From: Phycicoccus sp. M110.8
GTDB taxonomy: Bacteria; Actinomycetota; Actinomycetes; Actinomycetales; Dermatophilaceae
Direction of reading: 5' to 3'
DNA length: 64,000 bases
NCBI RefSeq assembly: GCF_032464895.1
Contig: NZ_JAWDIC010000001.1
Coordinates: forward strand, 2,294,001 to 2,358,000
Numbering within the stretch: position 1 is the first letter of the stretch; the number at the start of each line of letters is the position of its first letter. Positions 614 to 62,485 of this stretch are shown piece after piece. The translations under genes and the position numbers were made by a program. A model generated the notes under the pieces. It was not told where the DNA came from. It worked only from the letters and a program-made list of their open reading frames with translations, and searched no databases.

Positions 614-1517
614 CCTGCGGAGCACCTCCTGCTCGCGAGAGTACCGCCGCGGCGACCTCCTGCGCCCGGGTCTCGGGCAGCCAGTGGCCGGCGTCGAGCT
701 CGACGAACCGGTAGTCCGACGCCACCCAGTCGCCACTGGCCTCAGCGGCTCGCCGGCCCAGCGCCGGGTCGTGCGAGCCCCACAGGTACGTCGTCGGCAC
801 GGTGATCCGGTGGCCGCCGAGGCCTGGGTCGGGCACTTCCGCCCGGTCGCGGGATGCCTTGCGGCGCAACGGGTTCGGCAGGCCGGACAGGGTCGAGGCC
901 CCGAGCGGCAGGGCGCGGTACCAGGCCAGGCCCCCACCGGCGGCGCCCGGCTCGCGGAAGCGCGCGGCATACCTGCGCGCGTCCTCCGGCGGCAGGCCGC
1001 TGCGCCTCAGCACCCCCTCCAGCCGGCCGGCGAGCACCAGCTCGGGCAGCACCGGCAGCTGGAACGCGGCCATGTACCAGCTGTGCGAGGCCTGGTCGAG
1101 GTGGCGCAGCGCGGCGGCGAACGCCCGGTGGTGCGGCGTCGACAGGACGGTGAGCGACGCGAACCGCTCCGGGTGCCGCTCGGCCGCCGCCCACGCGACC
1201 GCACCGCCCCAGTCGTGCCCCACCAGGTGCACCCGCTGGACCCCGCACGCGTCGACCGCTGCGACGACGTCGGCCACGAGCTCGCCCATCCGGTATGCCG
1301 CACGGCCGCGCGGGCGGGCGCGCGGGGAGTACCCGCGCTGGTCGAACGCCACGACGCGCAGGCCGCCGGCCGTGAGCAGCGGGGTCACCCGCGACCAGGC
1401 GTGGCGGTCCTGCGGCCACCCGTGAAGCAGCAGCGCGACCGGTGGGTCGGCCGCCCCGTCGTCGGGGCCGTCGTCGCTGACGTCGAAGGTCAGCCCGTTC
1501 CTGCTGAGCTCGCGCAT
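606..1517 (-). CDS. Epoxide hydrolase-like alpha/beta hydrolase
   Basis: 303 residues. The oxyanion motif HGWP lies at residues 32-35 and the nucleophile elbow GHDWGG puts an aspartate at 102, as in epoxide hydrolases and haloalkane dehalogenases rather than serine esterases. A WYMAAFQLP segment near residue 147 resembles the cap-domain tyrosine region of epoxide hydrolases. The acid loop GSHDP and the final GHW histidine are present. It probably hydrolyses an epoxide or related xenobiotic in the cytoplasm. It is first in a three-gene minus-strand unit with a VOC protein and a kinase. A TAGGTT box sits 6 bases before the ATG, suggesting leaderless transcription. Confidence 0.85.
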   Translation of the reverse strand: MRELSRNGLTFDVSDDGPDDGAADPPVALLLHGWPQDRHAWSRVTPLLTAGGLRVVAFDQRGYSPRARPRGRAAYRMGELVADVVAAVDACGVQRVHLVGHDWGGAVAWAAAERHPERFASLTVLSTPHHRAFAAALRHLDQASHSWYMAAFQLPVLPELVLAGRLEGVLRRSGLPPEDARRYAARFREPGAAGGGLAWYRALPLGASTLSGLPNPLRRKASRDRAEVPDPGLGGHRITVPTTYLWGSHDPALGRRAAEASGDWVASDYRFVELDAGHWLPETRAQEVAAAVLSRAGGAPQDA

Positions 1518-1523
1518 GCCGGC

Positions 1524-1529
1524 AACCTA
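1524..1529 (-). promoter_or_regulatory. -10 box of leaderless promoter, hydrolase gene
   Basis: TAGGTT on the minus strand, 6 bases (GCCGGC) before the ATG at 1517, with no Shine-Dalgarno in between. This matches the TANNNT-N6/7-RTG layout of leaderless genes known in actinobacteria. Confidence 0.6.
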
Positions 1530-1560
1530 GCCCGGCCCGCGAGCCGTCGCGCGGCTGCGG

Positions 1561-1566
1561 GACAAT
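1561..1566 (+). promoter_or_regulatory. Probable -10 box of leaderless promoter, MFS gene
   Basis: GACAAT ends 7 bases before the GTG at 1574. The ATG at 1565 overlaps this box and would need a longer leader, so GTG 1574 is preferred. The box is a weaker match than most in this window because its first base is G. Confidence 0.45.
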
Positions 1567-1573
1567 GGCGGCC

Positions 1574-2917
1574 GTGACCAGCCGCGACCACCAGTACCCC
1601 ATGGGCGGTGGCCGGGCCTGGGTGGTCTACGGCAGCGCCGTCGCGCTCTACGTCCTCGCCGTCTTCAACCGCAGCTCGCTCGGCGTCGCCGGGCTGCTGG
1701 CGAGCGACCGCTTCCACATCGCCGCCACCCAGCTGTCGGTCTTCACGATGGTGCAGCTGTTCGTCTACGCCGCCATGCAGATCCCGGTGGGTGCCCTGCT
1801 CGACCGGTTCGGGCCCAAGCGGCTGCTGCTCACCGGCATGGGGCTGATGACGGTGGCGCAGCTGGCGTTCGCGTTCGCCGACTCCTTCGCCGCGGGCATC
1901 GGGGCGAGGGTGCTGCTCGGGATGGGCGACTCCATGGTGTTCGTCCCCCTCCTGCGCATCGTGGCCCTGTGGTTCCCCCCGATGCGGATCCCGATGGTCT
2001 CGCAGCTGACCGGCCTCCTGGGGCAGCTGGGCGCGCTCGTCGCCGCCTCACCTCTCGTCTACGCGCTGCACCAGTGGGGCTGGACCCCCTCGTACCTGAC
2101 CGCGGCGGGCGCCGGGGTGCTGCTGGGGGTGGTGGCGCTGGTGCTCGTCCGCGACTCCCCGAACCCCGACCACGAGCTCGACCGCATCAAGGTGCGCGCG
2201 ATCGCCCGCAGCCTCCGGGCGGCCTGGCGCGCCCCGGGCACCCGCCTCGGCCTGTGGTCGCACTTCTCCGCCCAGTTCGGGGCGACGGTGTTCGCGCTGC
2301 TGTGGGGCTACCCGTTCCTCGTTGCGGGACAAGGACTCTCGCCCGAGACGGCGGGCACGCTGCTCATGCTCATGACGGTCACCACGGTCGTCACCAGCCC
2401 GCTCATCGGGGGCTTCGTGACGCGGTACCCGTTCTCCCGCTCGACCCTGATCCTGGGCATCGTGCTGCTCATCATGACCGTGTGGGCGGTCGTGCTCCTG
2501 TGGCCGGGCCGGGCGCCACTGCCGCTGCTGGTCGTGCTCGTCGTCGTCACGGCCGTCGGTGGCCCCGGATCGCTGGTCGGCTTCGACCTCGCCCGCACCT
2601 TCAACCCGCCCACCCGGCTGGGCAGCGCCACCGGGATCGTCAACGTCGGCGGGTTCCTCGCGTCGCTGTCGACGGTGACCCTCATCGGCATCGTGCTCGA
2701 CCGGGTCGCGCCCGGCGGCCCGGAGACGTACACCGTCGACACCTTCCGCGCGGCGATGGCCGTGCAGTACCTCGTGTGGGGCGTCGGCGTCGCCCAGATC
2801 CTGCGCTACCGGCGGCGTGCCCGGCGCCACCTGCGGGACAGCGACCCCCAGGCGTATGCCGCGCTGCGGGCCGGGAAGCCGGTCCAACCGGCCGATCCGG
2901 GCCTCCCACCTGCGTAA
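1574..2917 (+). CDS. MFS transporter
   Basis: About 447 residues with twelve likely membrane helices. The loop after helix 2 carries the MFS signature region DRFGPKRLLLTG. The protein begins close to the first helix (VVYGSAVALYVLAVF) and ends in a basic cytoplasmic tail, RYRRRARRHLRD. Overall it looks like the anion:cation symporter type of MFS, but the substrate is unknown. It is divergent from the epoxide hydrolase unit, with under 60 bases between the start codons. The start is set at GTG 1574 because of the -10-like box just upstream; ATG 1565 is the in-frame alternative, three codons longer. Confidence 0.85.
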   Translation: MTSRDHQYPMGGGRAWVVYGSAVALYVLAVFNRSSLGVAGLLASDRFHIAATQLSVFTMVQLFVYAAMQIPVGALLDRFGPKRLLLTGMGLMTVAQLAFAFADSFAAGIGARVLLGMGDSMVFVPLLRIVALWFPPMRIPMVSQLTGLLGQLGALVAASPLVYALHQWGWTPSYLTAAGAGVLLGVVALVLVRDSPNPDHELDRIKVRAIARSLRAAWRAPGTRLGLWSHFSAQFGATVFALLWGYPFLVAGQGLSPETAGTLLMLMTVTTVVTSPLIGGFVTRYPFSRSTLILGIVLLIMTVWAVVLLWPGRAPLPLLVVLVVVTAVGGPGSLVGFDLARTFNPPTRLGSATGIVNVGGFLASLSTVTLIGIVLDRVAPGGPETYTVDTFRAAMAVQYLVWGVGVAQILRYRRRARRHLRDSDPQAYAALRAGKPVQPADPGLPPA

Positions 2918-2925
2918 ACGCCGAT

Positions 2926-7840: not shown

Positions 7841-8821
7841 GTGAGCGGCCCGCACCCGGCCACCGCCGCGGTCCGCCTCGCCGTCCGGGGGGTGCTCGCC
7901 GAGTGCGACCCGGGCGACGTCGTCCTGGCAGCGGTGAGCGGCGGGGCGGACTCCCTCGCCCTCGCCGCGGCGCTCGCGTTCGAGGCGCCGAGGCTGGGCG
8001 TGCGCGGGGGAGCGGTCGTCGTCGACCACGCCCTGCAGCCGGGCTCCGCGGAGGTGGCGCGGCAGGCCGCGGCAGCCTGCGAGGCCCTCGGGCTGGCCCC
8101 GGTCTCGTGGGTGCGGGTGGAGGTCCCCCGCGGCCGCGAGGGCGTGGAGGCCGCCGCCCGCGCGGCCCGGTACGACGCCCTCGCCAAGGCCGCGGCGCGG
8201 GAGGGCGCGCGGCTGGTGCTGCTCGGCCACACCCTGGACGACCAGGCGGAGCAGGTGCTCCTCGGCCTCACCCGCGGTGCCGGCGCCCGTTCCCTCGCCG
8301 GTATGCCGCGTGCCCGCGGCCTCCTGCGACGTCCCCTCCTGGGCGTGACGCGGGAGCAGACCCGGGCGTCCTGCGGCGCCGAGGGGCTGCGGTGGTGGGA
8401 GGACCCGATGAACGCCGACCCGGCATACACCCGGGTGCGCGCGCGGCGCGCCCTCGTGGACCTCGAGCGGGACCTGGGACCGGGGGTGGCCGCCGCGCTG
8501 GCGCGGTCGGCCGACCAGCTGCGCGAGGACGCCGACCTGCTCGACGGCCTCGCCGACGAGGCCGTGGCGCGGTTGGGCCCCGGCCCGTGGGACGTCGCCG
8601 CGCTCGCCGCCCTCGCCCGGCCCGTGCGCACGCGCGTGTGGCGGCGCCTGCTCCTGGCCGCCGGTGCCCCGGCCGGCCAGCTCGGCAGCCGGCACACCGA
8701 CGCGTGCGACGCGCTGGTCACCGACTGGCACGGGCAGGGCCCCCTGAGCGCGCCCGGACCGCTGCAGGTCACCCGATCCGGTGGTCGGGTATCCATCGCC
8801 GCGCCGGCTCCGGTTGAATAG
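7841..8821 (+). CDS. tilS: tRNA(Ile)-lysidine synthetase
   Basis: Attaches lysine to the wobble cytidine of the tRNA-Ile that reads AUA, using ATP. The PP-loop motif SGGADS lies at residues 33-38, followed by VVDHALQPGS and LGHTLDDQAEQVL, both diagnostic of TilS N-type ATPases. About 326 residues. GTG 7841 is used; a longer frame exists only by overlapping DUF2342. The gene matters for the ATA codons seen in this window: the few I noticed all sit inside the GGCATAC motif. It ends with TAG, rare here. A short gap leads to hpt. Confidence 0.93.
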   Translation: MSGPHPATAAVRLAVRGVLAECDPGDVVLAAVSGGADSLALAAALAFEAPRLGVRGGAVVVDHALQPGSAEVARQAAAACEALGLAPVSWVRVEVPRGREGVEAAARAARYDALAKAAAREGARLVLLGHTLDDQAEQVLLGLTRGAGARSLAGMPRARGLLRRPLLGVTREQTRASCGAEGLRWWEDPMNADPAYTRVRARRALVDLERDLGPGVAAALARSADQLREDADLLDGLADEAVARLGPGPWDVAALAALARPVRTRVWRRLLLAAGAPAGQLGSRHTDACDALVTDWHGQGPLSAPGPLQVTRSGGRVSIAAPAPVE

Positions 8822-12320: not shown

Positions 12321-14059
12321 GCGGTCGCGAGAGCACCCACACCACCACCCCCCGGCTCCCCGGCTTCCTCAGCGCCAGCAAGGCCCCGGCCCTCCTGGGC
12401 AACCTCACGTACCTCATCGGGCTGCTCGACCTGCTCACCGGGCTGCTGCACAGCTGGCGGCACCGGCTGCTCGAGCTGACCGAGGTGCTGCCCGGGGCCC
12501 TGTCCGACGCCGCCGCTGCCGCGACCGTCGTGTCGGGCGTCCTGCTGCTCGTCCTCGGGCACTCGCTCAAGCGGCGCAAGCGGCGGGCGTGGCGTGCCGC
12601 GGTCGCCCTCCTCGGGATCTCGGTCGTGCTGCACGCTGCCAAGGTCGAGCCGGTCTCCACCCTGGTCTCGCTGGGGGCGCTGGCGCTGCTCGTGCGCAAC
12701 CGGCGCGAGTTCTTCGCCCTCGGTGACCCGAGCACCCGGTGGCGCGCGGTCCGCGCCTTCCTCGTCCTGGGGACCGTGTCGTTCCTGGCCGGGACCGTCG
12801 CGATCTGGATGAACCGCCGCCACATCGTGGGCGGCTTCCCGTCCTTCCCCGACCTCGTGCGCGAGCTGCTCTACGGAGCCGTCGGGGTCAGCGGGCCGCT
12901 GCAGTTCACCCACTCCCGCGCCGAGGACATCGTCGGGTCCCTGCTGCTCGCCCTCGGCCTCATGACCGCGTTCACGACGGTCTACCTCGCGCTGCGCCCG
13001 GCGGAGCCGCGCCCCGAGCTCACCGACGACGACGACGCCCGGCTGCGCCTGCTCATGCAGCGGCACGCCGACTCCCTCGCGTACTTCAACACCCGGCGCG
13101 ACAAGTCCGTCGTCTGGTCGCCCACCGGCAAGGCCGGGGTCGCCTACCGCGTCGTCAGCGGCGTCATGCTCGCCAGCGGCGACCCGCTCGGCGACCCGGA
13201 GGCGTGGCCCGGCGCGATCGAGGCCTTCCTCGAGGAGGCGCGCAGCCACGCGTGGACCCCCGCGGTCCTCGGCTGCTCCGAGCAGGCCGGCACCGTGTGG
13301 GTCCGCGAGACCGGCTTCACGGCCCTCGAGCTCGGCGACGAGGCCGTCGTCGACACGACCACGTTCACCCTCCAGGGCCGGCCCATGCGCAACGTGCGCC
13401 AGATGGTGGGCCGGATCGAGCGCGCCGGGTATGCCGTGGACGTCACCCGGGTGCGCGACGTGGACCCGGCGGTGCGCGACGAGGCGATGAAGGACGCGTC
13501 GGCCTGGCGGTCCTCGGACACCGAGCGCGGCTTCTCGATGGCGCTCGGCCGGCTCGTCGACCCTGCCGCCGACCCGGAGTGCGTGTTCGTGACCGCCCGG
13601 CACGACGGGGTCGTGCGCGCGTTCCTGCAGTTCGTCCCGTGGGGCGACGACGGCATGTCCCTCGACGTCATGCGGCGCGACTCGACCGCCGAGGCCGGGG
13701 TCAACGAGCTCATGATCGCCACCGCCCTGCAGCGGGCGCCCGAGCTCGGCGTGCGCCGGGTGTCGCTCAACTTCGCCGCCTTCCGCTCGGCCCTCGAGCG
13801 GGGGGAGCGGCTCGGTGCCGGGCCGGTGCTGCGGCTGTGGCGGCGGGTGCTGCTCTTCGCCTCGCGCTGGCTGCAGATCGAGAGCCTGTACCGGTTCAAC
13901 GCCAAGTTCCAGCCGCAGTGGCAGCCCCGGTTCCTCGTCTACCCGGCCGCGGGCGACCTGCCCCGGGTCGCGCTCGCCTCGCTCGAGGCCGAGGCGTTCC
14001 TCGTCTGGCCCAAGCTGGGGCGCCTCAACGGCGCCCGCGAGGCCGTGGGGGCCAGGTGA
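12317..14059 (+). CDS. MprF/LysX-like membrane protein with DUF2156 lysyltransferase domain
   Basis: About 580 residues. The N-terminal third holds several membrane helices ([47 protein letters not shown]). The C-terminal part is a DUF2156 domain of two GNAT-like folds, as in phosphatidylglycerol lysyltransferases. By family it would transfer an amino acid from aminoacyl-tRNA to a membrane lipid, lowering surface charge and cationic peptide sensitivity. Unlike mycobacterial LysX there is no lysyl-tRNA synthetase domain; lysS lies separately at 25.7 kb. Its GTG overlaps the folE stop and its stop overlaps the folP start (GTGA both times), so it sits inside the folate operon for no obvious metabolic reason. 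Confidence 0.8.
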
Positions 14060-14972: not shown

Positions 14973-15853
14973 GCGACCAGATCGTCCTCAAGGGGATCTC
15001 GGCGCGGGGGCACCACGGCGTGCTCGACTTCGAGAAGCGGGACGGGCAGGTCTTCGTCGTCGACGTGACGATGGACGTCGACCTCGCGCCCGCCGGGTCG
15101 AGCGACGACCTCGCCGACACCGTGAACTACGCCGAGGTCGCCGCCGACGTCGTGGCCCTCGTCGAGGGCGAGCCGCTGGACCTCATCGAGGCGCTCGCGG
15201 CCCGCATCGCCGACCGCGTCCTGGCCCGCCCGCTCGTCGAGGCGGTCGAGGTGACCGTGCACAAGCCCGAGGCCCCGGTGGGGGTGCCGTTCACCGACGT
15301 GCAGGTGGTGGTCAGCCGCGAGCGGTGCACCCCGGTCGTGGTCGCCCTCGGCTCCAACGTCGGCGACTCGGTCGAGACTCTGCAGGACGCCGCGGTCGCC
15401 CTGCACGGCCTGCTCGACGTGACGGCCGTGTCCCGCCTCGTCGAGACCGACCCGGTCGGCGGCCCCGAGCAGCCGGCATACCTCAACGCGGTCGTCACGG
15501 GCACCACGCACCTCGCCCCCTCCAGCCTGCTCGCCGGCCTGCACGACATCGAGCGCGAGCACGGGCGCACCCGCGAGGTGCGCTGGGGCCCACGGACGCT
15601 CGACCTCGACCTCGTGCAGTACGGCGACCCGGTGTTCGACACCGACGTCGTCATGGACACCGCCACCCTGACCCTCCCGCACCCCCGGGCGCACGAGCGG
15701 GCGTTCGTGCTCGTGCCGTGGCTGCAGGCCGACCCCGAGGCGGTCCTGCGGGTCGAGGGACAGGTGCGCCGCGTGGGCGACGTGGTGGCCGGTCTCGACA
15801 CCTCGGGCGTGCGCCCCGGGCCGGACGTCGACCTCCTGGAGGGCCCGTGGTGA
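14969..15853 (+). CDS. folBK: Fused dihydroneopterin aldolase / HPPK (FolB-FolK)
   Basis: One 294-residue frame carries two folate enzymes. Residues 1 to about 118 are dihydroneopterin aldolase (VLKGISARGHHGVLDFEK, later VTVHKPEAPVG). From about 121 the protein is 6-hydroxymethyl-7,8-dihydropterin pyrophosphokinase (VVALGSNVGDS, GPRTLDLDLVQYGD, LPHPRAHERAFVLVPW). They catalyse consecutive steps before FolP, so the fusion may channel the pterin. In Mycobacterium and Streptomyces these are separate genes, to my knowledge. The sequence reads through with no stop at the junction. Confidence 0.94.
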   Translation: MSDQIVLKGISARGHHGVLDFEKRDGQVFVVDVTMDVDLAPAGSSDDLADTVNYAEVAADVVALVEGEPLDLIEALAARIADRVLARPLVEAVEVTVHKPEAPVGVPFTDVQVVVSRERCTPVVVALGSNVGDSVETLQDAAVALHGLLDVTAVSRLVETDPVGGPEQPAYLNAVVTGTTHLAPSSLLAGLHDIEREHGRTREVRWGPRTLDLDLVQYGDPVFDTDVVMDTATLTLPHPRAHERAFVLVPWLQADPEAVLRVEGQVRRVGDVVAGLDTSGVRPGPDVDLLEGPW

Positions 15854-16437: not shown

Positions 16438-17610
16438 CTACTTGTCGACGTCGCCGACGACGAAGAACATCGAGCCCAGGATGGCGACCATGTCCGAGAC
16501 GAGGTTGCCGGGCAGCACCTCGCCGAGCACCGACACGTTGTTGAACGACGCCGAGCGCAGCTTGAGCCGCCAGGGCGTCTTCTCGCCGCGCGAGACCAGG
16601 TAGTAGCCGTTGAAGCCGAGCGGGTTCTCGGTGGCGGTGTAGAGGTCGCCCTCGGGGACCTTGAGCACCTTGGGCAGCCGGACGTTGACCGGGCCCCGGG
16701 GGAGCGACCGCAGCCGGTCGAGGCACGCCTCGGCCAGGTCGAGGCTGACGTGCACCTGCTCGAGCAGCACCTCCAGCCGCGCCAGGCAGTCGCCGTCGGT
16801 GCGGGTCACGACCCGGCCGGGCCCGCCCTCGGCGAACAGCTCGGCATACGCGAGGTAGGGCTCGTCGCGGCGCAGGTCCACGTCGACGCCGGACGCCCGC
16901 GCGATGGGCCCCGAGACGCCGTATGCCGCGATGGTCTCCGGGGCCAGGACGCCCACCCCGCGCGTGCGCGCTTCGAGGATCTCGTTGCCCACGAGCATCG
17001 ACTCGAGGTCGGGCAGTCGGCGGCGGACCGCCGCCACGGCACGGTCGACCCGGTCGAGCCACCCAGCGGGCAGGTCCTCCTTGAGGCCGCCCACGCGGTT
17101 GAACATGTAGTGCATCCGGCCGCCGGACGCCTCCTCCATGACCGCCTGCAGCTCCTCGCGCTCGCGGAACGCGTAGAAGATCGGGGTGATCGCGCCGAGC
17201 TCGAGCGGGTAGGAGCCGAGGAACATCAGGTGGTTGAGCACCCGGTTGAGCTCGGCGAGCAGGGTGCGCGCCCAGACCGCGCGCTCGGGGACCTCCATGC
17301 CGAGCATCCGCTCGACGCCGAGGACCACGCCGAGCTCGTTGGCGAACGCCGAGAGCCAGTCGTGCCGGTTCGCGAGCACCACGATCTGCCGGTAGTCGCG
17401 CACCTCGAACAGCTTCTCGGCGCCGCGGTGCATGTACCCGACGATCGGGTCGGCACTGACGATGCGCTCGCCGTCGACGACGATCCGCAGCCGCAGCACC
17501 CCGTGGGTCGCCGGGTGCTGCGGGCCGATGTTGAGCACCATGTCGGCGGTGGCCAGGCCGCCCGCCCCCATGCCGACGGTGAGCTCGCGCTGGTCGCCGG
17601 TGGTGCTCAT
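16438..17610 (-). CDS. Orphan NADH-quinone oxidoreductase subunit D-like protein
   Basis: 390 residues of the 49-kDa (NuoD/NDUFS2) family. Near the N-terminus it has [15 protein letters not shown], then [11 protein letters not shown], which are quinone-site segments, and it ends with VVGDVDK, close to the normal family terminus. No other nuo gene is nearby. It may be the second NuoD copy known in some actinobacteria and may serve outside a full complex I, which is inference. A MidA-type methyltransferase, the family that modifies this subunit in mitochondria, lies 2 kb away on the same strand. TAGCCT 6 bases before the ATG suggests leaderless transcription. Confidence 0.85.
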
Positions 17611-37709: not shown

Positions 37710-37783
37710 GCGGCCGGCCACGGGGCCACGGTCGCGGGCACGCGGCATACCGGCGGGGGAGGAGCCGGTGCGAGGATGCGGCC

Positions 37784-39157: not shown

Positions 39158-39186
39158 GCGCCAGCACTTCCGTATGCCGTGTCGAT

Positions 39187-42562: not shown

Positions 42563-42598
42563 CCGGTATGCCGCGTGGGCGACCACGCGGCATACCGG
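42563..42598. repeat. Perfect 16-bp inverted repeat carrying GGTATGCC in both arms
   Basis: CCGGTATGCCGCGTGG, a GCGA loop, then the exact complement. It contains one copy of the window-wide GTATGCC motif on each arm and lies 15 bases after the clpC stop. Confidence 0.85.
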
Positions 42599-45452: not shown

Positions 45453-46939
45453 GGCATACCTCCTGGTGGGTGGGGTCCACCACCGTCCCAGGCGCCGCCG
45501 ACACGGGCCCGTCGCGTTGAGAGGCGGATCCGCACGGTGGCCGCCAGGACCAGGACCAGCAGCCCGCTCACCACGCCGAAGCCGAGCTGCGGCACGAGCG
45601 GCAGCGCGATCCCGATGGCGCCACCGACGACCCAGGCGGTCTGCAGCACCGTCTCGGACCAGGCGAAGACCCGGGTGCGCACCGACTCCTCGATGTCGCG
45701 CTGCACGACCGCGTCGCTGCTGAGCTTGATGAGCTGCCCGGTCAGGCCCGCGCACAGGCCCAGTGCGAGCAGGGTGCCGAGCGAGTAGAAGACCGCGGCA
45801 GCCAGGGCGGCGAGGACCTCGGCGAGGAGGGCCACGGCCACGATGACGTCCGGCCGCCGCCTGCGCAGCGCGTTGCCGACGACGGTGCCCAGGGCGTTGC
45901 CGGCGCCCGCGGCGCCCACGACCAGACCGAGCACGAGGGTCCCGTTGTGGCCCGGGATCGGGTGCTCGCGCATGAGGAAGGCCATGAACAGGGTCAGGAA
46001 CCCCGTGAGCAGCCGTGCGCCGATGGCGGCGCACAGGGCGGCCAGCACCGTCGGCGGGAGGGCGGAGACGCGGGCTCGGGCCCGGCGAAGGAAGCCGCCG
46101 CCGGGCTCGAGGTCCGCCGTGCGTGGCAGGTGCAGGGGCACCGTGTCGGCGATGTCGTGCTCCCCGGCGCTGGAGTCCACCCGGGCCGGCAGCCGGATCG
46201 CCATGACGGTCGCGACGACGTAGATGAGGAACGCCAGCCGCAGCGACCACTCCGGCCCGACCCGGGCGGCCGCACCGGCCAGCCCGCCGCCGATGGCCAT
46301 CCCCGCCACACCGGCGAGGGCGCTGCGGGAGTTGGCGTTGACGAGGCTGAAACCCGCCGGCAGCAGGCGCGGGACGGCGGAGGACCGGGTGACGCCATAG
46401 GCCTTGGACGCCACGAGGCACCCCAGCGCCGCCGGGAAGAGCCAGGCCGAGTGCTCGGCGACGGCCCCGGCGAGCACCCAGCACAGGAACGCGCGCAGGG
46501 CCAGGGTGGTACCGATCGCCCAGCGGCGACCGTGCCGGAAGCGGTCGAGCAGCGGCCCGATGAACGGTGCCAGCAGGACGAACGGCGCCATGGTGAGCGC
46601 CAGGAACTGCGCCACCTGGCCGCGGGCCTCGTCGGTGGGGATCGCGAAGATGGTGCCGGCGAGGGAGACGGTGAGCGCGGCGTCGCCCATGAGGTTGACG
46701 AAGTGCAGCTCGATGAGACGGGCCAGCCCGGTCTCGCCCGCGCCGGCCGACGCGGTGTACGCCCGCGCCCGCTGGGCGCCTGCCCTGCCGCCCCGCCCGG
46801 CCAGGCGTACCCCGGCCACGGTGCCCCGCCCGATGGCGCGACCCGTCCGCGTCGCCCGGTCACGCAGCGATCCGGTCCCCTTCCGGTGGTCCGGCGAGCC
46901 GGGTGGCTGCCGACCCGTCGCGCCAGGCTTCTCGGTCAT
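45449..46939 (-). CDS. MFS transporter of the disA unit
   Basis: 496 residues with about twelve membrane helices after an unusually long basic N-terminus of some 70 residues (DHRKGTGSLRDRATRTGRAI). Helices include LTVSLAGTIFAIPTDEARGQ at the start and LGFGVVSGLLVLVLAATVRI at the end. A mid-loop DLEPGGGFLRRARAR separates the halves. Substrate unknown. Its ATG overlaps the mutY stop and its stop overlaps the VOC start. Confidence 0.82.
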   Translation of the reverse strand: MTEKPGATGRQPPGSPDHRKGTGSLRDRATRTGRAIGRGTVAGVRLAGRGGRAGAQRARAYTASAGAGETGLARLIELHFVNLMGDAALTVSLAGTIFAIPTDEARGQVAQFLALTMAPFVLLAPFIGPLLDRFRHGRRWAIGTTLALRAFLCWVLAGAVAEHSAWLFPAALGCLVASKAYGVTRSSAVPRLLPAGFSLVNANSRSALAGVAGMAIGGGLAGAAARVGPEWSLRLAFLIYVVATVMAIRLPARVDSSAGEHDIADTVPLHLPRTADLEPGGGFLRRARARVSALPPTVLAALCAAIGARLLTGFLTLFMAFLMREHPIPGHNGTLVLGLVVGAAGAGNALGTVVGNALRRRRPDVIVAVALLAEVLAALAAAVFYSLGTLLALGLCAGLTGQLIKLSSDAVVQRDIEESVRTRVFAWSETVLQTAWVVGGAIGIALPLVPQLGFGVVSGLLVLVLAATVRIRLSTRRARVGGAWDGGGPHPPGGMP

Positions 46940-48972: not shown

Positions 48973-50352
48973 ACCGGGAGGGGACTGCAGTGCGGAGCGC
49001 ACCGCGGAGCGGATGTCGGGGCACTCCACGACGGCCATCCCCTCCGGCGCCGGGCCGTTGCCCGCGGTGCCGGCAGGCACGTAGGCCGTGCGGAACCCCA
49101 GGCGTGCCGCCTCGGCCAGCCGGCGCGGTATGCCGGTGACCGGGCGCAGCTCGCCGGCGAGCCCGAGCTCGCCGAAGGCGACGGCGTCCGGCGGCAGCGG
49201 CTGGTCCTTCACCGCGCTCGCCATCGCGAGCGCGACGGCCAGGTCGGACGCGGGCTCGGTGAGCCGGACGCCCCCGACCGTGGACAGGTAGACGTCGCTG
49301 CCCCCGATCGGGGCGCCCGCGCGCTTGGCGATGACCGCCACGATCATCGCCACCCGGGCGGAGTCCAGGCCGCTGGTCGCCCGGCGGGGCGTGGGGATCT
49401 CGGACTTCGCCACGAGCGCCTGGACCTCGGTCATGAGCGGACGCCGTCCCTCGAGCGTGACGGTGACGCAGGTGCCCGGCACGGAGAGCGTGTTGCGCGA
49501 CAGGAAGAGGCCGCTGGGGTCGGAGAGCCCGACGATGCCCACGTCGGAGAGGTCGAAGCAGCCGACCTCGTCGGTGGGGCCGTAGCGGTTCTTCACCGCA
49601 CGCACCAAGCGCAGCCGGGAGTGCCGGTCGCCCTCGAACTGCACGACGACGTCGACGAGGTGCTCGAGCACCCGTGGGCCGGCGATCGACCCGTCCTTGG
49701 TGACGTGGCCGACGAGCAGGGTGGCGATGCCGCGCGCCTTGGCGACGGCGATGAGCGACGCCGTCACCTCACGCACCTGGGTGACGTTGCCCGCGGCGCC
49801 CTCGACCTCGCCGCTGGCGATGGTCTGGACCGAGTCGACGACGAGCAGGTCCGGCTGCACGGCCTCGACCTGCCCCAGCACGGTGGCCAGGTCGGTCTCG
49901 GAGGCCAGGAAGAGCGAGGAGGCCATCGCCTCGATCCGCTCGGCGCGCATGCGCACCTGCGCGGCCGACTCCTCGCCGGTGACGTAGAGGACGGTGCGCC
50001 CGGTCTCCTGCCGGGCGGCGCGGGCGGCGACGTCGAGCAGGAGGGTGGACTTGCCGATGCCGGGCTCCCCGGCCACGAGGACCACGGCGCCCGGGACGAG
50101 CCCGCCGCCGAGGACCCGGTCGAACTCGCCCACCCCCGTGGGACGCGCTTCCGCCCGGCGGACGTCGACCTGCCCGATCGGCAGCGCGGGACGGTCCACG
50201 CGGGCGGCCGGGGTCGTGCGGGCGCTGACCGCCCCCACCTCGCTCACGCTGCCCCACGCCTGGCACTCGCCGCAGCGGCCGACCCACTTGACCGTGCTCC
50301 AGCCGCACTCGGAGCAGCGGTAGCCGCTCGAGGTCCTCGTCTTCGCCGCCAT
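48970..50352 (-). CDS. radA: DNA repair protein RadA
   Basis: Branch-migration helicase-like protein in recombination. 460 residues. The zinc finger uses Cys13, Cys16, Cys27 and Cys30; Walker A is GEPGIGKST with Lys100; the RadA motif KNRYGPTDE is present, and the C-terminal Lon-like domain follows (GGVRLTEPASDLAVALAMAS). TAGGTT 7 bases before the ATG suggests leaderless transcription. Its neighbour disA is a known functional partner. Confidence 0.97.
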   Translation of the reverse strand: MAAKTRTSSGYRCSECGWSTVKWVGRCGECQAWGSVSEVGAVSARTTPAARVDRPALPIGQVDVRRAEARPTGVGEFDRVLGGGLVPGAVVLVAGEPGIGKSTLLLDVAARAARQETGRTVLYVTGEESAAQVRMRAERIEAMASSLFLASETDLATVLGQVEAVQPDLLVVDSVQTIASGEVEGAAGNVTQVREVTASLIAVAKARGIATLLVGHVTKDGSIAGPRVLEHLVDVVVQFEGDRHSRLRLVRAVKNRYGPTDEVGCFDLSDVGIVGLSDPSGLFLSRNTLSVPGTCVTVTLEGRRPLMTEVQALVAKSEIPTPRRATSGLDSARVAMIVAVIAKRAGAPIGGSDVYLSTVGGVRLTEPASDLAVALAMASAVKDQPLPPDAVAFGELGLAGELRPVTGIPRRLAEAARLGFRTAYVPAGTAGNGPAPEGMAVVECPDIRSAVRSALQSPPG

Positions 50353-51490: not shown

Positions 51491-52189
51491 TCAGAACCGG
51501 CGCCACCACAGGTTGACGGCGTAGTCGACGGACGTCCCCTCGTGCTCGGCGAGGATCCCCTCCGCGGCGGTCTCCGGGAACTCGATCCGCACCACGGCCT
51601 CGAAGTCCTCCCGGCTGTCGTGCTCCCACGTGATCGTGAGCGGGTGTCGCTGCCAGCCCTGGCGGGTCCAGAACCGCTGCACCGCGAGGGCGTCGTACCC
51701 CGGGTAGGCGCGGGCGAACCAGCGCCCGAACGTCGAGCGCGTGGCGTCGTTGTCGATGACGTATGCCGTGCCGCCCGGCCGCAGGACCCGCGCCACCTCG
51801 GCGAGGCCCGGCTCGCACCCGGCGCCGAAGAAGTACGCCCACCGCGCGTGGACGATGTCGACGGAGTCGTCGGGGAGGGGCAGGTCCTGGGCCACACCCT
51901 CCTCGACGCGGACACCCGGCATACCCGAGACCCGTTGGCGCGCAAGGGAGACGAGGGGAGGGTGGGGCTCCACGCCGACCACAGAGGCGCACCCGAGGGC
52001 GAGGAAGCGCGGCAGGTGGTAGCCGCTGCCGCAGCCGACGTCGAGCAGGTCGGCGCCCTCGAACCGGTGGTGCTCGGCCATCGCCGCCTCGACGAGGCCG
52101 GCCCGGTCGACGCCGCGGTTCTCCAGCTCGTAGACGTCCGGGCTGTCCCAGATGTTCGGGCTGCGGGTGGGCTCGTGCTGCTCGGTCAC
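51491..52189 (-). CDS. Class I SAM-dependent methyltransferase
   Basis: 232 residues. The SAM loop is [20 protein letters not shown], followed by VGVEPHPPL and a Methyltransf_11 pattern ([33 protein letters not shown]). The substrate is unknown. Its GTG overlaps the stop of the cysteine-rich protein gene (GTGA), so the two are coupled and may act together. Confidence 0.85.
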
Positions 52190-52989
52190 CGGCGGTTGCG
52201 GGCGGCTTCCTGGGCGGCGAGCGTCGCCGGGTGGACGAGGAGCGGCAACATCTTGCGGGAGTAGGCGTTCCGCGCCGCCTTCACGCTCGCGAGGTGTGCC
52301 TCGCAGCGGAGCTCCAGCTCGGCATACGCGGCCTCGCCCATGAGCTCCACCAGCTCGCCCTTGTTGCTGCGGAAGACCGGCTCGCGACCCACGTGGGCCT
52401 CGGGGTTGCCCGAGCAGTACCAGTCCAGGTCGTGGCCGCCGGGCCCCCAGCCGCGGCGGTCGTACTCGGTGATCGTGACCTCCTGCCACGACGAGCCGTC
52501 GGGCAGCTCGACCGTGCGGTAGGTGCGGCGGATCGGCAGCTGCCAGCAGACGTCGGGCTTGACGGTGTGCGGCTCCTTGCCGGTGAGGACGGCGTGCTGG
52601 TGCAGCGCGCACCCGGCACCGGCGGGGAACCCGGGCCGGTTGAGGAAGATGCAGGCGCCGTCGACGACCTTGGTCTTGAGCGCGCCGTCCTCGAGCTCGG
52701 TCCAGGCGCCCTGCTTGGTGGAGCCGGGGTGGTGCTGCCACTCGTCCTCGCCGAGCTCCCTGGCCACCTTCTTGACCCGCTTGACGTCGTCGTCGTCGGT
52801 GAAGTGCGCGCCGAGGGTGCAGCAGCCGTCGTCGGGCCGGTCGGCGTAGATGCCCTGGCACCCGCTGCCGAAGATGCAGGTCCAGCTCGAGGTGAGCCAG
52901 GTCAGGTCGCAGCGGAAGCGCTGGTTGCCGTCGGCGGGGTCGGGGAACTCCACCCAGATGCGGGCGGTGTCGAGGGGGGTCTCAGCCAC
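52186..52989 (-). CDS. Cysteine-cluster protein of unknown function
   Basis: 267 residues. Nine or more cysteines are arranged as [20 protein letters not shown], then [38 protein letters not shown] and RCEAH, with interspersed histidines. This looks like a metal or Fe-S binding site, as in YkgJ-like or DUF3109-like cysteine-cluster proteins, but I cannot assign the family firmly. There is no signal peptide. GTG 52989 is 6 bases after TAGGGT. Confidence 0.7.
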
Positions 52990-54566: not shown

Positions 54567-55397
54567 ATGGCCGGAGCGGTGTCGATCCCAGGTGCCACGG
54601 TGGCCCTGTCGACCGCGTCGGTCTACCCCGAGTCCTGCGCGTCGGCGTTCGCCACCGCGGCCCGTCTCGGCTACGACGGCGTCGAGGTCATGGTCTGGAC
54701 CGACCCGGTCTCGCAGGAGGCCGGCGCCCTCGCGGCGCTCTCCGAGCTGCACGGCATACCGGTCGTGTCGGTGCACGCGCCCACGCTGCTGCTCACCCAG
54801 CGGGTGTGGAGCACCGACCCCTGGACCAAGGTGGACCGGTCGATCGAGCTGGCCCAGGACCTCGGGGCGTCGACCGTCGTGCTGCACCCGCCGTTCCGCT
54901 GGCAGAAGGAGTACGCCCGCGACTTCGTGGAGGGGATCGCGCTGCGCGAGCGCGAGAGCGGGGTCGCGCTCGCCGTCGAGAACATGTTCCCGTGGCGCGC
55001 CCGCCAGCGGGAGTTCGAGGCGTACCTGCCGCACTGGGACCCGGTCCTGCAGGCGTACGACAACGTCACCCTCGACCTCTCGCACACGGCGACCGCGGGC
55101 TCGGACGCGATGGCGATGGCCGCCGCCCTGGGGGCCCGGCTGCGGCACGTGCACCTGGCCGACGGGCTCGGCTCCCTCAAGGACGAGCACCTGGTCCCCG
55201 GCCGTGGCGGGCAGCCGTGTGCCGAGTTCCTCGAGCTGCTGGCGACCCGCGGGTTCGCCGGGTCGGTCGTCGTCGAGGTCGGCACCCGGCGCGTGACGCC
55301 CGAGCAGCGCGACGTCGACCTCGCCGAGGCGCTGGCCTTCGCCCGGCTGCACCTGGCGACCGCCAGCCCGGCGCAGGCCCCCGCGAGCCCCCGATGA
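54567..55397 (+). CDS. Sugar phosphate isomerase/epimerase-like TIM barrel
   Basis: 276 residues of the xylose-isomerase-like (AP endonuclease 2) fold. Strand motifs [50 protein letters not shown] and [12 protein letters not shown] place His, Glu and Asp metal ligands as expected. The substrate is unknown. A homologue lies between ppx and proC in Mycobacterium. It ends in a run of 11-bp repeats that resemble the next gene's start. Confidence 0.85.
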
Positions 55398-56808: not shown

Positions 56809-57539
56809 ACCCCCGCCGCACCGCCGTCACCGCCGGCCGCGTCCTGGCCCAGCTGAGGGCCGACCACCGCACGATCGCGCTGATGCTGGTCGTGCCGCTC
56901 GTCCTCATGGGCCTGCTGGCCTGGGTCTTCAGCGGCACCCCGGTCTTCGACGCGATCGGGGCCGCCCTGCTCGGCGTGTTCCCGTTCATCGTCATGTTCG
57001 TCGTGACGAGCGTGGCCACCCTGCGCGAGCGCACCTCCGGCACGCTCGAGCGGCTGCTCACGACGCCGATGGGCAAGGGCGACTTCATGCTCGGCTACGC
57101 GATCGCGTTCGGCCTGATGGCCGTCGTCCAGGCGCTCGTCACGACCGCGTTCGCCGTCTGGGTCTGCGGCCTCGACGTGGCCGGCTCGTTGTGGCTGCTG
57201 GTCGTCGTGGCGGTGCTCGACGCCGCGCTCGGGACCGCGCTCGGCCTGCTGGCCAGCGGGTTCGCGCGCACCGAGTTCCAGGCGGTGCAGTTCATGCCGG
57301 CGTTCGTGCTGCCGCAGTTCCTGCTGTGCGGCCTGCTCGTGGCGCGCGACCAGCTCCCGGACTTCCTGCGCTGGGTCTCGGACGTGCTGCCGCTGTCGTA
57401 TGCCGTGGACGCGATGAAGTCGGTGACGACCAGCTCCGCGGCAGGCGGCGACGTGGCCTCCGACGCCGGGATCATCGTGCTCTGGGTCGTGGTCGCCCTC
57501 GTCCTCGGCAGCCTCACCCTGCGCCGGCGCACGGCCTGA
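56805..57539 (+). CDS. ABC-2 type transporter permease
   Basis: 244 residues with six membrane helices, from IALMLVVPLVLMGLLAWVFS to GIIVLWVVVALVLGSLTL. The ABC-2 motif TLRERTSGTLERLLTTPM lies before helix 3. With the ATPase upstream it forms an exporter, probably for a drug or lipid. ATGA overlap. Confidence 0.92.
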   Translation: MNPRRTAVTAGRVLAQLRADHRTIALMLVVPLVLMGLLAWVFSGTPVFDAIGAALLGVFPFIVMFVVTSVATLRERTSGTLERLLTTPMGKGDFMLGYAIAFGLMAVVQALVTTAFAVWVCGLDVAGSLWLLVVVAVLDAALGTALGLLASGFARTEFQAVQFMPAFVLPQFLLCGLLVARDQLPDFLRWVSDVLPLSYAVDAMKSVTTSSAAGGDVASDAGIIVLWVVVALVLGSLTLRRRTA

Positions 57540-58596: not shown

Positions 58597-59403
58597 ATGT
58601 CCACAGTCGCGATCCTCGGCGCCGGCGTGATGGGGGAGACCCTGCTGTCCGGCCTTGTCCGCTCCGGCCGCAGCGCCGCCGACCTCGTGGTGACGACCCG
58701 TCGCCCGGAGCGCGCCGAGGAGCTCGTCGAGCGCTACGGCGTGCGGGCGATGTCCAACACCGAGGCCGCGGAGGCCGCCGACACCCTCGTCCTCGTCGTC
58801 AAGCCCCAGGACATGGCCGGTCTCGTCGAGGAGATCCGCGACCACGTCCAGCCGGGCAACCTCGTCGTCAGCCTCGCCGCCGGCATACCGACCTCGTTCC
58901 TCGAGAGCCGCCTCCCGGAGGGCGTCGCGGTGGTGCGCGTCATGCCCAACACGCCCGCGCTCGTCGACCAGGGGATGGCCGCGATCAGCGGTGGCCGCAG
59001 CGCCGACGCCCCGCACCTGGCCGAGGCGGCGGAGCTGTTGCGCTCGTGCGGCCGGGTGGTGGAGGTCGCCGAGAAGCACCAGGACGCCGTCACGGCCATC
59101 AGCGGGTCGGGACCGGCCTACATCTTCTACGTCGTCGAGGCGATGATCGAGGCCGGCGTCGTGCTGGGCCTGCCGCGGCCCACCGCCACCGAGCTGGTCG
59201 TCCAGACGCTCTTCGGCGCCGCGACGATGATCCGCGAGACCGGCCAGCACCCCACCGTGCTGCGCGAGCAGGTCACGTCGCCGGGCGGCACGACCGCGGC
59301 GGCGCTGCGCACCCTCGACGACCACAAGGTCAGGGCCGCGTTCATCTCCGCCATGGAGGCCGCGGCCCGCCGCTCCCACGAGCTCGCGAGCGGCCATGAC
59401 TGA
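58597..59403 (+). CDS. proC: Pyrroline-5-carboxylate reductase
   Basis: Final step of proline synthesis. 268 residues. The NADP fold is VAILGAGVMGETLLSGLVRS, then VVRVMPNTPALVDQGMAAIS and the substrate site AISGSGPAYIFYVVEAM, ending with the VTSPGGTTAAALRTL helix. AAGACT 6 bases before the ATG may be a weak leaderless box. It belongs to the conserved ppx-proC-HTH-bS22 block. Confidence 0.95.
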   Translation: MSTVAILGAGVMGETLLSGLVRSGRSAADLVVTTRRPERAEELVERYGVRAMSNTEAAEAADTLVLVVKPQDMAGLVEEIRDHVQPGNLVVSLAAGIPTSFLESRLPEGVAVVRVMPNTPALVDQGMAAISGGRSADAPHLAEAAELLRSCGRVVEVAEKHQDAVTAISGSGPAYIFYVVEAMIEAGVVLGLPRPTATELVVQTLFGAATMIRETGQHPTVLREQVTSPGGTTAAALRTLDDHKVRAAFISAMEAAARRSHELASGHD

Positions 59404-60522: not shown

Positions 60523-61188
60523 TCAGGGACGGGACGCGAGCCGCTCGATGAGGGACGTCGGACCGCTCACGATGAGGGTGTCGTGCCCGCTCACCTTGGT
60601 CTCCGGCACGGCATACGTGAAGTCCTGGCCGGGGGACTTGACCCCGACCACGGTCACGCCGTACTTCGAGCGGATCGCGCTCTGCGCCAACGTGAAACCG
60701 ATCGCCTCCTGCGGCGGTCGCATCTTCACGATCGCGAACCCGTCGTCGAACTCGATGTAGTCCATGAGCTTGCCGTTGAGCAGGTGTGCGACCCGGCGGC
60801 CGCTATCGGCCTCGGGCGCGATCACGTGCTGCACGCCGATCCGCTCGAGGATCCGCTGGTGCTCCGGCGTCAGGGCCTTGGCCCAGATGGTGGGGATGCC
60901 GGCGTCGACGAGGTTCATGGCGCACAGGACGCTCGCCTCGACCGAGGAGCCGATGCCCACCACGGCCAGCTTGAAGTTGCGGGCCTTGAGGTTGCCCATC
61001 GCAGCCGGCTGGCTGGCGTCGACCTGGACGATCTTGGCGACCTTCCCGAGGAAGGTCTCGGCGCGGGCGGCGTCGAGCTCGACGGCGACCACCGTGTGCC
61101 CGAGCCGCTGCAGCTCGACCGCCACGGCGCCGCCGAAGCGGCCGAGGCCGATGACCAGGACGTCGTCCTCGTAGAGCTTCTTCGCCAC
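60523..61188 (-). CDS. TrkA/KtrA-type RCK potassium-uptake regulator
   Basis: 221 residues. RCK_N begins VLVIGLGRFGGAVAVELQRL and RCK_C follows (FDDGFAIVKMRPPQEAIGFT, YAVPETKVSGHDTLIV). By family it gates a Trk/Ktr potassium channel in response to nucleotides; RCK_C domains of some members bind c-di-AMP, and the cyclase DisA is encoded at 48 kb. No TrkH/KtrB gene is adjacent, so its channel partner lies elsewhere. The start is GTG 61188, 6 bases after TAGCGT. Confidence 0.9.
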   Translation of the reverse strand: MAKKLYEDDVLVIGLGRFGGAVAVELQRLGHTVVAVELDAARAETFLGKVAKIVQVDASQPAAMGNLKARNFKLAVVGIGSSVEASVLCAMNLVDAGIPTIWAKALTPEHQRILERIGVQHVIAPEADSGRRVAHLLNGKLMDYIEFDDGFAIVKMRPPQEAIGFTLAQSAIRSKYGVTVVGVKSPGQDFTYAVPETKVSGHDTLIVSGPTSLIERLASRP

Positions 61189-61194
61189 GGGGGA

Positions 61195-61200
61195 ACGCTA
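61195..61200 (-). promoter_or_regulatory. -10 box of leaderless promoter, RCK gene
   Basis: TAGCGT on the minus strand, 6 bases (TCCCCC) before the GTG at 61188. Confidence 0.6.
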
Positions 61201-61275
61201 CCGCGTGTTCGCGGCCCGTATGCCGGGCCGTCCGGCCGCGGTGGCCCGGTGGATGCCTGGCCCTGCTGCGGCGGG

Positions 61276-61281
61276 TAGCGT
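61276..61281 (+). promoter_or_regulatory. -10 box of leaderless promoter, deacetylase gene
   Basis: TAGCGT followed by 7 bases (GCGGGCC) and the ATG at 61289. Confidence 0.6.
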
Positions 61282-61288
61282 GCGGGCC

Positions 61289-62485
61289 ATGCCCTCACAG
61301 GTGCGGGTGGTCTGGGACCCCGGGTTCACCGCGTACGACTTCGGTCCGGGGCACCCCATGAACCCCGCGCGCCTCGACCTGACCGCGCGGCTCTGCGACG
61401 CCCTCGGGGTGTTCGACGCCGAGGGCGTCGAGGTCTTCTCGCCGGGGGCGCCCGAGGACGAGCTCCTCCTGACGGTCCACGAGCCCGCCTACGTCGAGGC
61501 GGTCCGCGCCGCGTCCGAGGACCCCCGGGCGGCCGACACCTCGCGCGGCCTGGGGACCGACGACGACCCGGCGTTCCGCGGGATGCACGAGGCGAGCGCG
61601 CGGGTGGTCGAGGGGACGCGCCAGGTGTGCGCCGACGTGTGGGAGGGCAGGGCCGCGCACGGCGTGAACTTCTGCGGCGGGCTGCACCACGCCATGGCAG
61701 GGAACGCCTCGGGGTTCTGCATCTACAACGACATCGCGGTCGGCATCCGCTGGCTGCTCGACCACGGGGCGCAGCGGGTGGCGTACGTCGACGTGGACGT
61801 CCACCACGGCGACGGGGTCCAGAGCGTCTTCTGGGACGACCCGCGCGTGCTGACGATCTCGGTGCACGAGTCCGGCCGGGCGCTGTTTCCCGGCACCGGC
61901 TGGCCGTTCGAGACCGGGGGCGAGGGCGCGGAGGGCTCGGCCGTCAACGTCGCCCTGCCGCCGGGCACCGGTGACTCGGCCTGGTTGCGGGCGCTGCACT
62001 CCACCGCCCTGCCCCTCGTGCGGGCCTTCCGTCCCGACGTGCTCGTCACCCAGCACGGCTGCGACACGCACGTGCAGGACCCGCTCGCCCACATGGCGTT
62101 GTCGGTCGACGCCCAGCGCGGCGCGGCCGACGCCCTGCACCGCCTCGCGCACGAGGTGTGCGGTGGGCGCTGGGTGGCCCTCGGCGGGGGAGGCTACGAG
62201 CTCGTGCACGTGGTGCCGCGCACGTGGACGCACCTCACCGCGATCGCCGCGCACGCGCCCGTGCCGCTCACCGCACCCGTCCCGGAGGACTGGCTGGAGC
62301 ACGTGCGCACGGCATACGGCCGCGAGGGGCCGCGCCGGATGGGTGACCTCGACCCCGCCGAGGGCCCGATCTGGCACCAGCCGTGGGACATGGGCTACAA
62401 CCCGCACAGCGAGGTCGACCGCGCCATCATGGCGACCCGCGAGGCGGTCTTCCCGCTGCACGGCCTCGACCCCTGGTTCGACTGA
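61289..62485 (+). CDS. acuC: AcuC-like histone deacetylase family protein
   Basis: 398 residues. The class I-type deacetylase motifs are present: GPGHPMNPARLDLT, GVNFCGGLHHAMAGNASGFC, the metal site VDVDVHHGDGVQ, ISVHESGRALFPGTG, and QHGCDTHVQDPLAHM with the second aspartate. AcuC-type enzymes deacetylate proteins such as acetyl-CoA synthetase. Two GNAT genes lie close by, an intriguing but unproven link. The last three residues and stop (WFD-stop) are the beginning of a triplicated 81-bp unit. Confidence 0.9.
   Translation: MPSQVRVVWDPGFTAYDFGPGHPMNPARLDLTARLCDALGVFDAEGVEVFSPGAPEDELLLTVHEPAYVEAVRAASEDPRAADTSRGLGTDDDPAFRGMHEASARVVEGTRQVCADVWEGRAAHGVNFCGGLHHAMAGNASGFCIYNDIAVGIRWLLDHGAQRVAYVDVDVHHGDGVQSVFWDDPRVLTISVHESGRALFPGTGWPFETGGEGAEGSAVNVALPPGTGDSAWLRALHSTALPLVRAFRPDVLVTQHGCDTHVQDPLAHMALSVDAQRGAADALHRLAHEVCGGRWVALGGGGYELVHVVPRTWTHLTAIAAHAPVPLTAPVPEDWLEHVRTAYGREGPRRMGDLDPAEGPIWHQPWDMGYNPHSEVDRAIMATREAVFPLHGLDPWFD

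Follow-up and report, generated by a model that had tools for sequence, protein, structure and literature searches.

The octamer GTATGCCG is hyper-iterated in the genome of the actinobacterium Phycicoccus sp. M110.8, and copies on the same strand keep their distance from each other whereas copies on opposite strands do not. The word came to attention in a stretch of 64,000 nucleotides (contig NZ_JAWDIC010000001.1, positions 2,294,001 to 2,358,000; referred to here as the window), where it recurs in both orientations, in genes, between genes and in one hairpin. It is abundant, has one strong dialect, is conserved in place, forms hairpin pairs, excludes itself in a strand-specific manner and is scarce in low-GC DNA. 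What is such a word for? Three classes of hyper-iterated short words have been described, namely Chi, uptake sequences and HIP1 (PMC4390886, of which, as of the other papers cited, excerpts are drawn on here). The favoured reading, attractive yet still a little short of probable, is that GTATGCCG is a self-DNA signal of the uptake-sequence type (DNA uptake sequence, DUS, or uptake signal sequence, USS), read with polarity and feeding homologous recombination.

The word in the window and in the genome

The window holds exactly 39 copies of the heptamer GTATGCC or its complement (21 GTATGCC and 18 GGCATAC, spanning 966 to 62311), just the number that the original prediction had counted by eye, while Markov models of order 1, 2 and 3 lead one to expect 1.8, 2.2 and 3.2. 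At order 4 the expectation climbs to 16.8 and at order 5 it equals the observed count, because such models hold the heptamer's own sub-words. These sub-words also inflate the model when 7- to 10-mers of the window alone are ranked at the highest order, which is why the motif does not come first there; GGCATA alone headed the 6-mers. A G follows GTATGCC in 38 of the 39 copies, so the true unit is the 8-mer GTATGCCG; the tenth position has a milder preference for G (33 of 39 copies in the window, 69% of 233 copies in the larger sample described next).

M110.8 denotes here the genome under study (4.12 Mb in 7 contigs), and its 384-kb sample consists of the window plus 16 stretches. Genome-wide, GTATGCC occurs 1,305 + 1,289 times versus 153 + 140 for its reversed control, and GTATGCCG occurs 1,234 + 1,242 = 2,476 times versus 74 + 61 = 135, an enrichment larger than had been claimed. 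The comparison with third- and fourth-order expectations that had been suggested leaves the excess in place: at order 3 GTATGCCG is the top 8-mer of the 384-kb sample (220 observed versus 11.6 expected, z 61), and it is again the top 8-mer at order 4 (220 versus 58.5).

Codon context and conservation in place

Is the word a by-product of codon-pair preference or composition? Genes were called with a simple GC3-based script, with no annotation used. Of the copies in the window, 33 of 39 fall within called genes and 6 outside, and genic copies are mostly Tyr-Ala or Ala-Tyr codon pairs, as an artefact of this kind would have it. The pairs are extreme, though: in the 384-kb sample 104 of 135 TAT codons stand in the pair TAT-GCC (11.1 such pairs expected), 93 of these 104 read G TAT GCC G, and GCA-TAC occurs 66 times versus 14.3 expected. 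The claim that the word imposes rare codons was right and understated, since all four ATA codons in the called genes of the window lie within the motif (23040, 49129, 54756 and 58885), where three had been noticed; so do 13 of the 18 TAT codons. A codon-pair explanation, which the original prediction had named as its possible undoing, fails on the intergenic excess: in the M110.8 sample the density is 0.84 per kb outside called genes versus 0.53 inside. Outside exceeds inside in five of eight genomes, the others being G190 (2.03 versus 0.80 per kb), G202 (2.11 versus 0.70), G147 (0.54 versus 0.42) and G123 (0.72 versus 0.41, a non-genic figure that is unreliable as the gene caller misses genes in lower-GC genomes such as this one); in G141, G004 and G083 the density outside is lower than inside. 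Positional bias of the word within genes is weak. Gene context was further controlled by means of permitted places, that is, places in 11 genomes at which the word is compatible with the encoded peptide, given free choice among synonymous codons (two codon frames). The word fills 153 of 274 such places in the M110.8 sample versus 0 of 77 in G127 and 1 of 28 in G098, both motif-poor. Density and permitted places already contradict the artefact, whose probability is negligible; as had been supposed, neither composition nor codons explain a word that is iterated in either orientation and appears in intergenic DNA and in a hairpin as well.

The copies are also conserved at orthologous positions beyond what matched codons show. 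The region of nadB and its surroundings, extending to at most 40 kb, was compared with nine genus mates (median ortholog protein identity 79–84%; G009 is not included, and G083, a tenth aligned genome with the other dialect, is excluded from the sums). G001 has the word at 11 of the 14 positions that align with genic copies of M110.8, G004 at 10 of 15 and G005 at 9 of 15; matches are fewer in G010 (1 of 12) and G006 (3 of 15), whose genomes have fewer copies, and G083 keeps 0 of 8 sites. For the nine genus mates together, GCA codons within the motif are retained in 29 of 49 cases and those elsewhere in 27 of 207; for TAT the figures are 34 of 63 and 2 of 19. These counts reuse the same M110.8 sites over nine genomes and are thus not independent. 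Fifteen aligned places are one base off, and in 11 of these the changed base is the T that stands at the wobble position.

Strand-specific spacing and occupancy

Is the word read in one direction? No orientation bias is found along the M110.8 chromosome (1,234 versus 1,242; origin and terminus not located), and most stretches of three genomes are near even in strand, with one 20-kb stretch at 6:1. The original prediction took such equality as an argument against polarity; the argument does not hold, as strand counts are equal and yet same-strand copies space out and opposite-strand copies do not. Spacing was tested in samples of 100–384 kb per genome (80 kb for G202) against uniform random placement. 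The coefficient of variation (CV) of same-strand spacing in M110.8 is 0.59 versus 0.96±0.06 for the null, and G190 and G202 (both 0.63), G004 (0.65) and G147 (0.69) are likewise evener than random. Over eight genomes, same-strand pairs within 1 kb number 200 versus 341 expected, the deficit having the same sign in all eight, and opposite-strand pairs number 384 versus 342 expected. Among control words, same-strand clustering is seen in the M110.8 sample for two frequent 8-mers and for the rarer GGATGCCG; CTCGCGCA in G083 is spaced near randomly, and ATGCCGCG, a word of G190 that overlaps the motif, follows the pattern of the motif.

Permitted places tell the same story. With those less than 2.5 kb from either end of a stretch left aside, occupancy rises with the distance to the nearest same-strand copy: 24 of 94 below 300 bp, 32 of 89 at 300–600, 54 of 94 at 600–1000, 82 of 110 at 1000–1500, 89 of 127 at 1500–2500 and 81 of 114 beyond 2500 bp. 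Pooled, this amounts to 56 of 183 (31%) with a same-strand copy closer than 600 bp versus 252 of 351 (72%) beyond 1 kb. For opposite-strand neighbours the corresponding fractions are 83 of 150, 90 of 130, 70 of 119, 53 of 88, 50 of 85 and 16 of 56, and the low last value is read as a mark of motif-poor regions. Since same-strand copies space out and opposite-strand copies do not, the signal would be polar and used in both orientations; the word thus looks like a directional signal, neither a codon artefact nor HIP1.

A directional reader, to which the same-strand exclusion points indirectly, is what GTATGCCG would share with Chi, and a Chi-like signal is the main rival to the uptake reading. 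On this view AdnAB, or RecBCD in genomes that have it, would move along DNA as a helicase-nuclease and, on meeting the word in one orientation, pass from degradation to recombination. A correctly oriented copy would have to come soon from any DNA end, and redundancy would therefore be strand-specific, which is the behaviour of the M110.8 spacing, the pair counts and the pooled occupancy given above. Both words are also iterated 8-mers in genomes with helicase-nuclease genes. Yet Chi of E. coli, taken as a yardstick over 400 kb, has 86 copies oriented 66:20, whereas GTATGCCG has no orientation bias and is denser (0.44–1.13 per kb in the eight sampled genomes). Nor does E. coli Chi exclude itself on the same strand: the majority strand has a CV of 1.04 versus 1.03±0.12, and the minority strand 1.47 versus 0.90±0.17 (17 gaps). 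GTATGCCG has dialects, whereas the excerpted account of Enterobacteriaceae describes Chi as well conserved and not dialect-rich; the five species for which it states Chi words to be known include no actinobacterium (PMC8022716). A Chi-like role is, all considered, unlikely, though a contender to be taken seriously.

Two further explanations are touched by these data. In one, a HIP1-type methyltransferase or word-specific repair would modify, generate or keep the word through biased mutation or repair; HIP1 (GCGATCGC) of cyanobacteria is another hyper-iterated 8-mer found in genes and intergenic DNA, and its class is tied to methyltransferases (PMC4390886). Two one-letter neighbours of the heptamer do lie under second-order expectation in the window (GCATGCC, 5 versus 23.4; GTCTGCC, 3 versus 15.8), but a third, GTACGCC, is not depleted (27 versus 14.5 expected), and a mutational process gives no reason for permitted places to stay empty near a same-strand copy. 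For a methyltransferase, an uninterrupted non-palindromic 8-mer would be an unusual target, which again counts against such an origin. HIP1 is palindromic, whereas GTATGCCG is non-palindromic and strand-directional, has dialects and lives in a host that is no cyanobacterium; the membership in the HIP1 class that had been entertained for it is hence abandoned, and a HIP1-type process is improbable. In the other, the word would be bound by a nucleoid or chromosome-organising protein whose sites are distributed evenly on the chromosome. Same-strand spacing is even in five of eight genomes by CV and the word occurs in gene and non-gene DNA, as this would have it. A simple site would, however, be redundant on either strand, yet opposite-strand copies do not repel, and dialects and within-genus loss are unexpected for an essential architecture site; this explanation seems very improbable.

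Inverted pairs and hairpins

The hairpin of the window (42563..42598, + strand) consists of two inverted copies, 42566..42573 (+) as left arm and 42588..42595 (−) as right arm, in a perfect 16-bp stem with a 4-base loop (folded at −36.4 kcal/mol, z −7.15), and lies just downstream of a Clp-ATPase open reading frame ending at 42547. Pairs of this kind, counted as convergent copies 2–22 bases apart in 28 motif-bearing genomes hand-picked from the 186 of the family, sum to 1,155 versus 239 expected, about fivefold; M110.8 has 25 (7.8 expected at random), G001 94 and G095 202, while several genomes of genus g68 have little or no excess. The M110.8 sample has three pairs whose members lie no more than 30 bp apart; each is a convergent hairpin outside called genes, and two of them sit 21 bp past a same-strand gene. 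Across the eight spacing samples, pairs whose starts lie within 45 bases are convergent in 15 cases, divergent in 8 and tandem in 3. The hairpins are terminator-like and resemble those of the DUS/USS kind, their role in termination being putative.

Distribution and dialects in the family

The word is a trait of one family, the Intrasporangiaceae (Dermatophilaceae in GTDB). The best full-length named matches of the NadB encoded in the window come from Pedococcus and Phycicoccus species (76–81% identity), with other Intrasporangiaceae close behind, and a partial match comes from Segeticoccus (85%); the host thus belongs to this group. Among such named relatives GTATGCC occurs 20 times in 21.7 kb of Pedococcus bigeumensis, 14 times in Terrabacter tumescens and 16 times in Humibacillus xanthopallidus, and 0 times in 21.6 kb of Phycicoccus jejuensis. 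At least 400 copies of GTATGCCG are present in 106 of 186 family genomes (maximum 4,724, in G017), and in 105 of 186 the word reaches five or more times its reversed control. The ratio is 2.5–2.9 in G025, G090, G062 and G066, because the reversed control is high there too. All ten genus mates of M110.8 are enriched (625 to 3,986 copies), and in 22 genomes sampled elsewhere in the order, outside this family, the count is 2–167, which is 0.5 to 3.6 times their own controls. Some genera are polymorphic: G127 has 19 copies versus 3,681 in G128, G065 has 37 although four of its genus mates each exceed 1,200, and G151 has 50 versus 394 to 1,901 in the remaining members of its genus.

A one-letter dialect, GGATGCCG, reaches 2,099–4,480 copies in 7 of the 186 genomes (G026, G071, G083, G084, G085, G086 and G202). 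The remaining genomes have 241 to 1,336, with the highest values in G011 and G199 and a mild excess in G180 (1,210 genome-wide). G085 and G086 hold both words (GGATGCCG 2,195 and 2,099; GTATGCCG 1,217 and 1,189). In an FtsH tree of 30 genomes GGATGCCG appears in two separate clades, each near GTATGCCG genomes, and GTATGCCG is present in both deep branches; judging from this one gene tree, the simplest history would be an old GTATGCCG, repeated losses and at least two switches of the second base.

Do motif-poor members use other words? Samples of 80–140 kb from eleven of them were searched for over-represented words. G202 gave GGATGCCG (73 versus 8.5 expected). Weaker candidates in this GC-rich DNA are GTACGGCG (G127), GTACGCCG (G131), GGCGTACG (G034) and CGATGCGG (G126), and no strong word emerged from the 80-kb samples of five of the eleven (G180, G207, G067, G087 and G065), samples in which a less abundant word might go unnoticed.

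A few observations on individual genomes stand apart from this. G127 (L118–L124) is enriched in GTACGRCG, a few letters from the motif and in many copies trailed by C two bases on; this could be another dialect or reflect a codon effect. The genus g62, of which 16 sampled species are without GTATGCCG, includes G098 (L125–L128), where an unrelated 9-mer, CGAAGGGGG, occurs 39 times versus 2.3 expected in 80 kb and is possibly a separate signal. In 120 kb of G141 (L112–L117) longer words, GGACGCAATA (12 copies) and GAAAGCCTCA (10), resemble an interspersed or tandem repeat.

Low-GC DNA

Low GC, which is a proxy only for foreign origin, was scored in 4-kb bins lying more than 3 points under the median GC. 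Such bins hold on average 1.00 copies in the M110.8 sample (12 bins) versus 2.48 elsewhere. Six other genomes have such bins (1 to 7 each); five of these agree in direction, and G202, with one bin, goes the opposite way. Scarcity in DNA of odd composition is shared with uptake sequences. Separately, a 20-kb locus of M110.8 (L103, C1:2200001-2220000; 67.8% GC) has zero copies and encodes an RHS-repeat protein and a TniB-like ATPase; it is likely an acquired island.

Candidate machinery and the uptake reading

How would an uptake signal come to be repeated so often? In the proposed mechanism, a transformation machine, presumably a Tad/Flp-type pilus with ComEA/ComEC as in Micrococcus luteus, would favour DNA carrying GTATGCCG in capture or processing, and this DNA would then be recombined into the chromosome, so that copies might build up by biased exchange until there is about one per kb per strand where protein sequence permits. 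An extra copy nearby in the same orientation would add nothing, and in lineages where the specificity of the reader changes the genome would drift to a new dialect. The uptake step, the receptor, the drive and the polarity of the machine are parts that we infer. Flp-pilus-dependent transformation has been reported in actinobacteria (PMC4322843).

By its anatomy the word shares most with uptake sequences and least with HIP1; from the list of candidates first drawn up, the uptake sequence is the one that fits best and HIP1 the one that drops out. Like DUS of Neisseriaceae and USS of Pasteurellaceae it is a short non-palindromic word in thousands of copies, equal in both orientations and present in intergenic DNA, with inverted pairs as terminator-like hairpins, dialects within one family and two dialects in one genome. 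The excerpts describe uptake sequences as lacking orientation bias (PMC1939737), as evenly spaced in the case of USS (Karlin 1996, as cited in PMC1939737), as often being inverted repeats that act as terminators, with dialects (PMC12616744, PMC3630211), and as occurring in two dialects at once in one species (PMC3630211). The hosts differ, being high-GC actinobacteria, with no N-methyl pilin found in 182 of 186; here the exclusion is same-strand only, and uptake is presumed.

Several findings weigh against the uptake reading. Orientation-independent uptake, as described in the excerpts of PMC1939737, does not predict same-strand-only exclusion, and the same excerpts put inverted-repeat uptake words at no more than about 10% and argue against both a role as terminators and strict evenness. 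By CV there is little or no spacing regularity in G141 (0.90), G123 (0.85) and G083 (1.17, with a null influenced by uneven stretches), and inverted pairs are not in excess in G162 (6 versus 5.4 expected) and G173 (5 versus 4.9). Type IV N-methyl pilins (PF07963), the class to which known or predicted uptake receptors such as the minor pilins of ComP or ComN type belong, were found in just 4 of 186 genomes, Tad/Flp-type pilins not having been searched. Lastly, ComEC (180 of 186 genomes) and T2SSF-domain proteins (183 of 186; Pfam PF00482, not specific to Tad pili) fail to discriminate because motif-poor genomes have both. In M110.8 ComEC adjoins a protein with SLBB and helix-hairpin-helix domains of the ComEA type. 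The four N-methyl pilin matches are in G035, G015, G204 and G100; in the first three the T2SSF matches are the strongest as well, which might reflect acquisition of a type IVa pilus or a type II system.

A Chi-like signal has its candidate machinery too. M110.8 has two adjacent proteins of UvrD-helicase plus PD-(D/E)XK nuclease architecture, of the AdnA/AdnB type, and relatives of both are found in 19 of 20 genomes (one long open reading frame only in G021), a presence that suits Chi. They occur regardless of dialect, though, and the tree of the AdnB-like protein does not sort by dialect, so this protein was rejected as dialect determinant. The PF12705 nuclease domain, found in 186 of 186 genomes, is near universal and does not discriminate. 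RecC, present in 89 of 186, was likewise discarded as driver: one genus shows a contrast, the word missing from RecC-bearing G065 and present in its mates without RecC, but over all genomes at least 400 copies occur in 45 of 89 with RecC and 61 of 97 without, which is no consistent association. None of ComEC, T2SSF, PF12705, RecC, pilins and AdnAB pins down the reader. As a side observation, RecC is patchy within genera (G001 alone in g1, G065 alone in g50, G199 alone in g73), which suggests repeated gain or loss of RecBCD beside AdnAB.

Could the word belong to a system of its own? Genome-wide uptake words are attributed to Neisseriaceae and Pasteurellaceae only in the excerpts cited (PMC1939737, PMC12616744, PMC3630211), and these, with that on Chi, describe same-strand-only exclusion for neither uptake sequences nor Chi. 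The one open-access library searched, PMC2843746 included, yielded among the matches listed no report of this word as a genomic signal and nothing on over-represented DNA uptake sequences in Actinobacteria. It is conceivable, if somewhat doubtful, that GTATGCCG marks a strand-directional self-DNA signalling system of actinobacteria that is neither DUS nor Chi as known, with a polar reader that would need one copy per strand within about 1 kb, family-wide spread, dialect switches, and same-strand exclusion as its signature. A dialect-bearing word in more than 100 species of one actinobacterial family would point to an uptake-specificity system in high-GC Gram-positives, or to a Chi-type system there. 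Strand-specific exclusion and the polymorphic genera (g26, g50, g53 and g68) offer natural contrasts for finding the reader.

Copies in the window

Besides the hairpin arms, copies of GTATGCCG in the window fall into the following contexts. Tyr-Ala is encoded at 965..972 (−), 2854..2861 (+), 13429..13436 (+), 16842..16849 (−), 18722..18729 (+), 22759..22766 (+), 23693..23700 (+, in nadB), 25291..25298 (+), 26718..26725 (+), 44306..44313 (+), 52320..52327 (−), 57398..57405 (+) and 60609..60616 (−). Ala-Tyr is encoded at 1293..1300 (+, as read on the gene strand), 8421..8428 (−), 15474..15481 (−), 16921..16928 (+), 18886..18893 (−), 28231..28238 (−), 29400..29407 (+), 33749..33756 (+), 37341..37348 (+), 51761..51768 (+) and 62310..62317 (−). 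The copies at 8301..8308 (+), 35737..35744 (−), 45452..45459 (−) and 51917..51924 (−) read Gly-Met-Pro, and those with an ATA codon read Gly-Ile at 23036..23043 (−) and Gly-Ile-Pro at 49128..49135 (+), 54752..54759 (−) and 58881..58888 (−). Outside called genes lie 30348..30355 (−), 37743..37750 (−), 39172..39179 (+) and 61218..61225 (+). The heptamer at 19762..19768 (+), which is followed by A, is the sole copy in the window without G at the eighth base.

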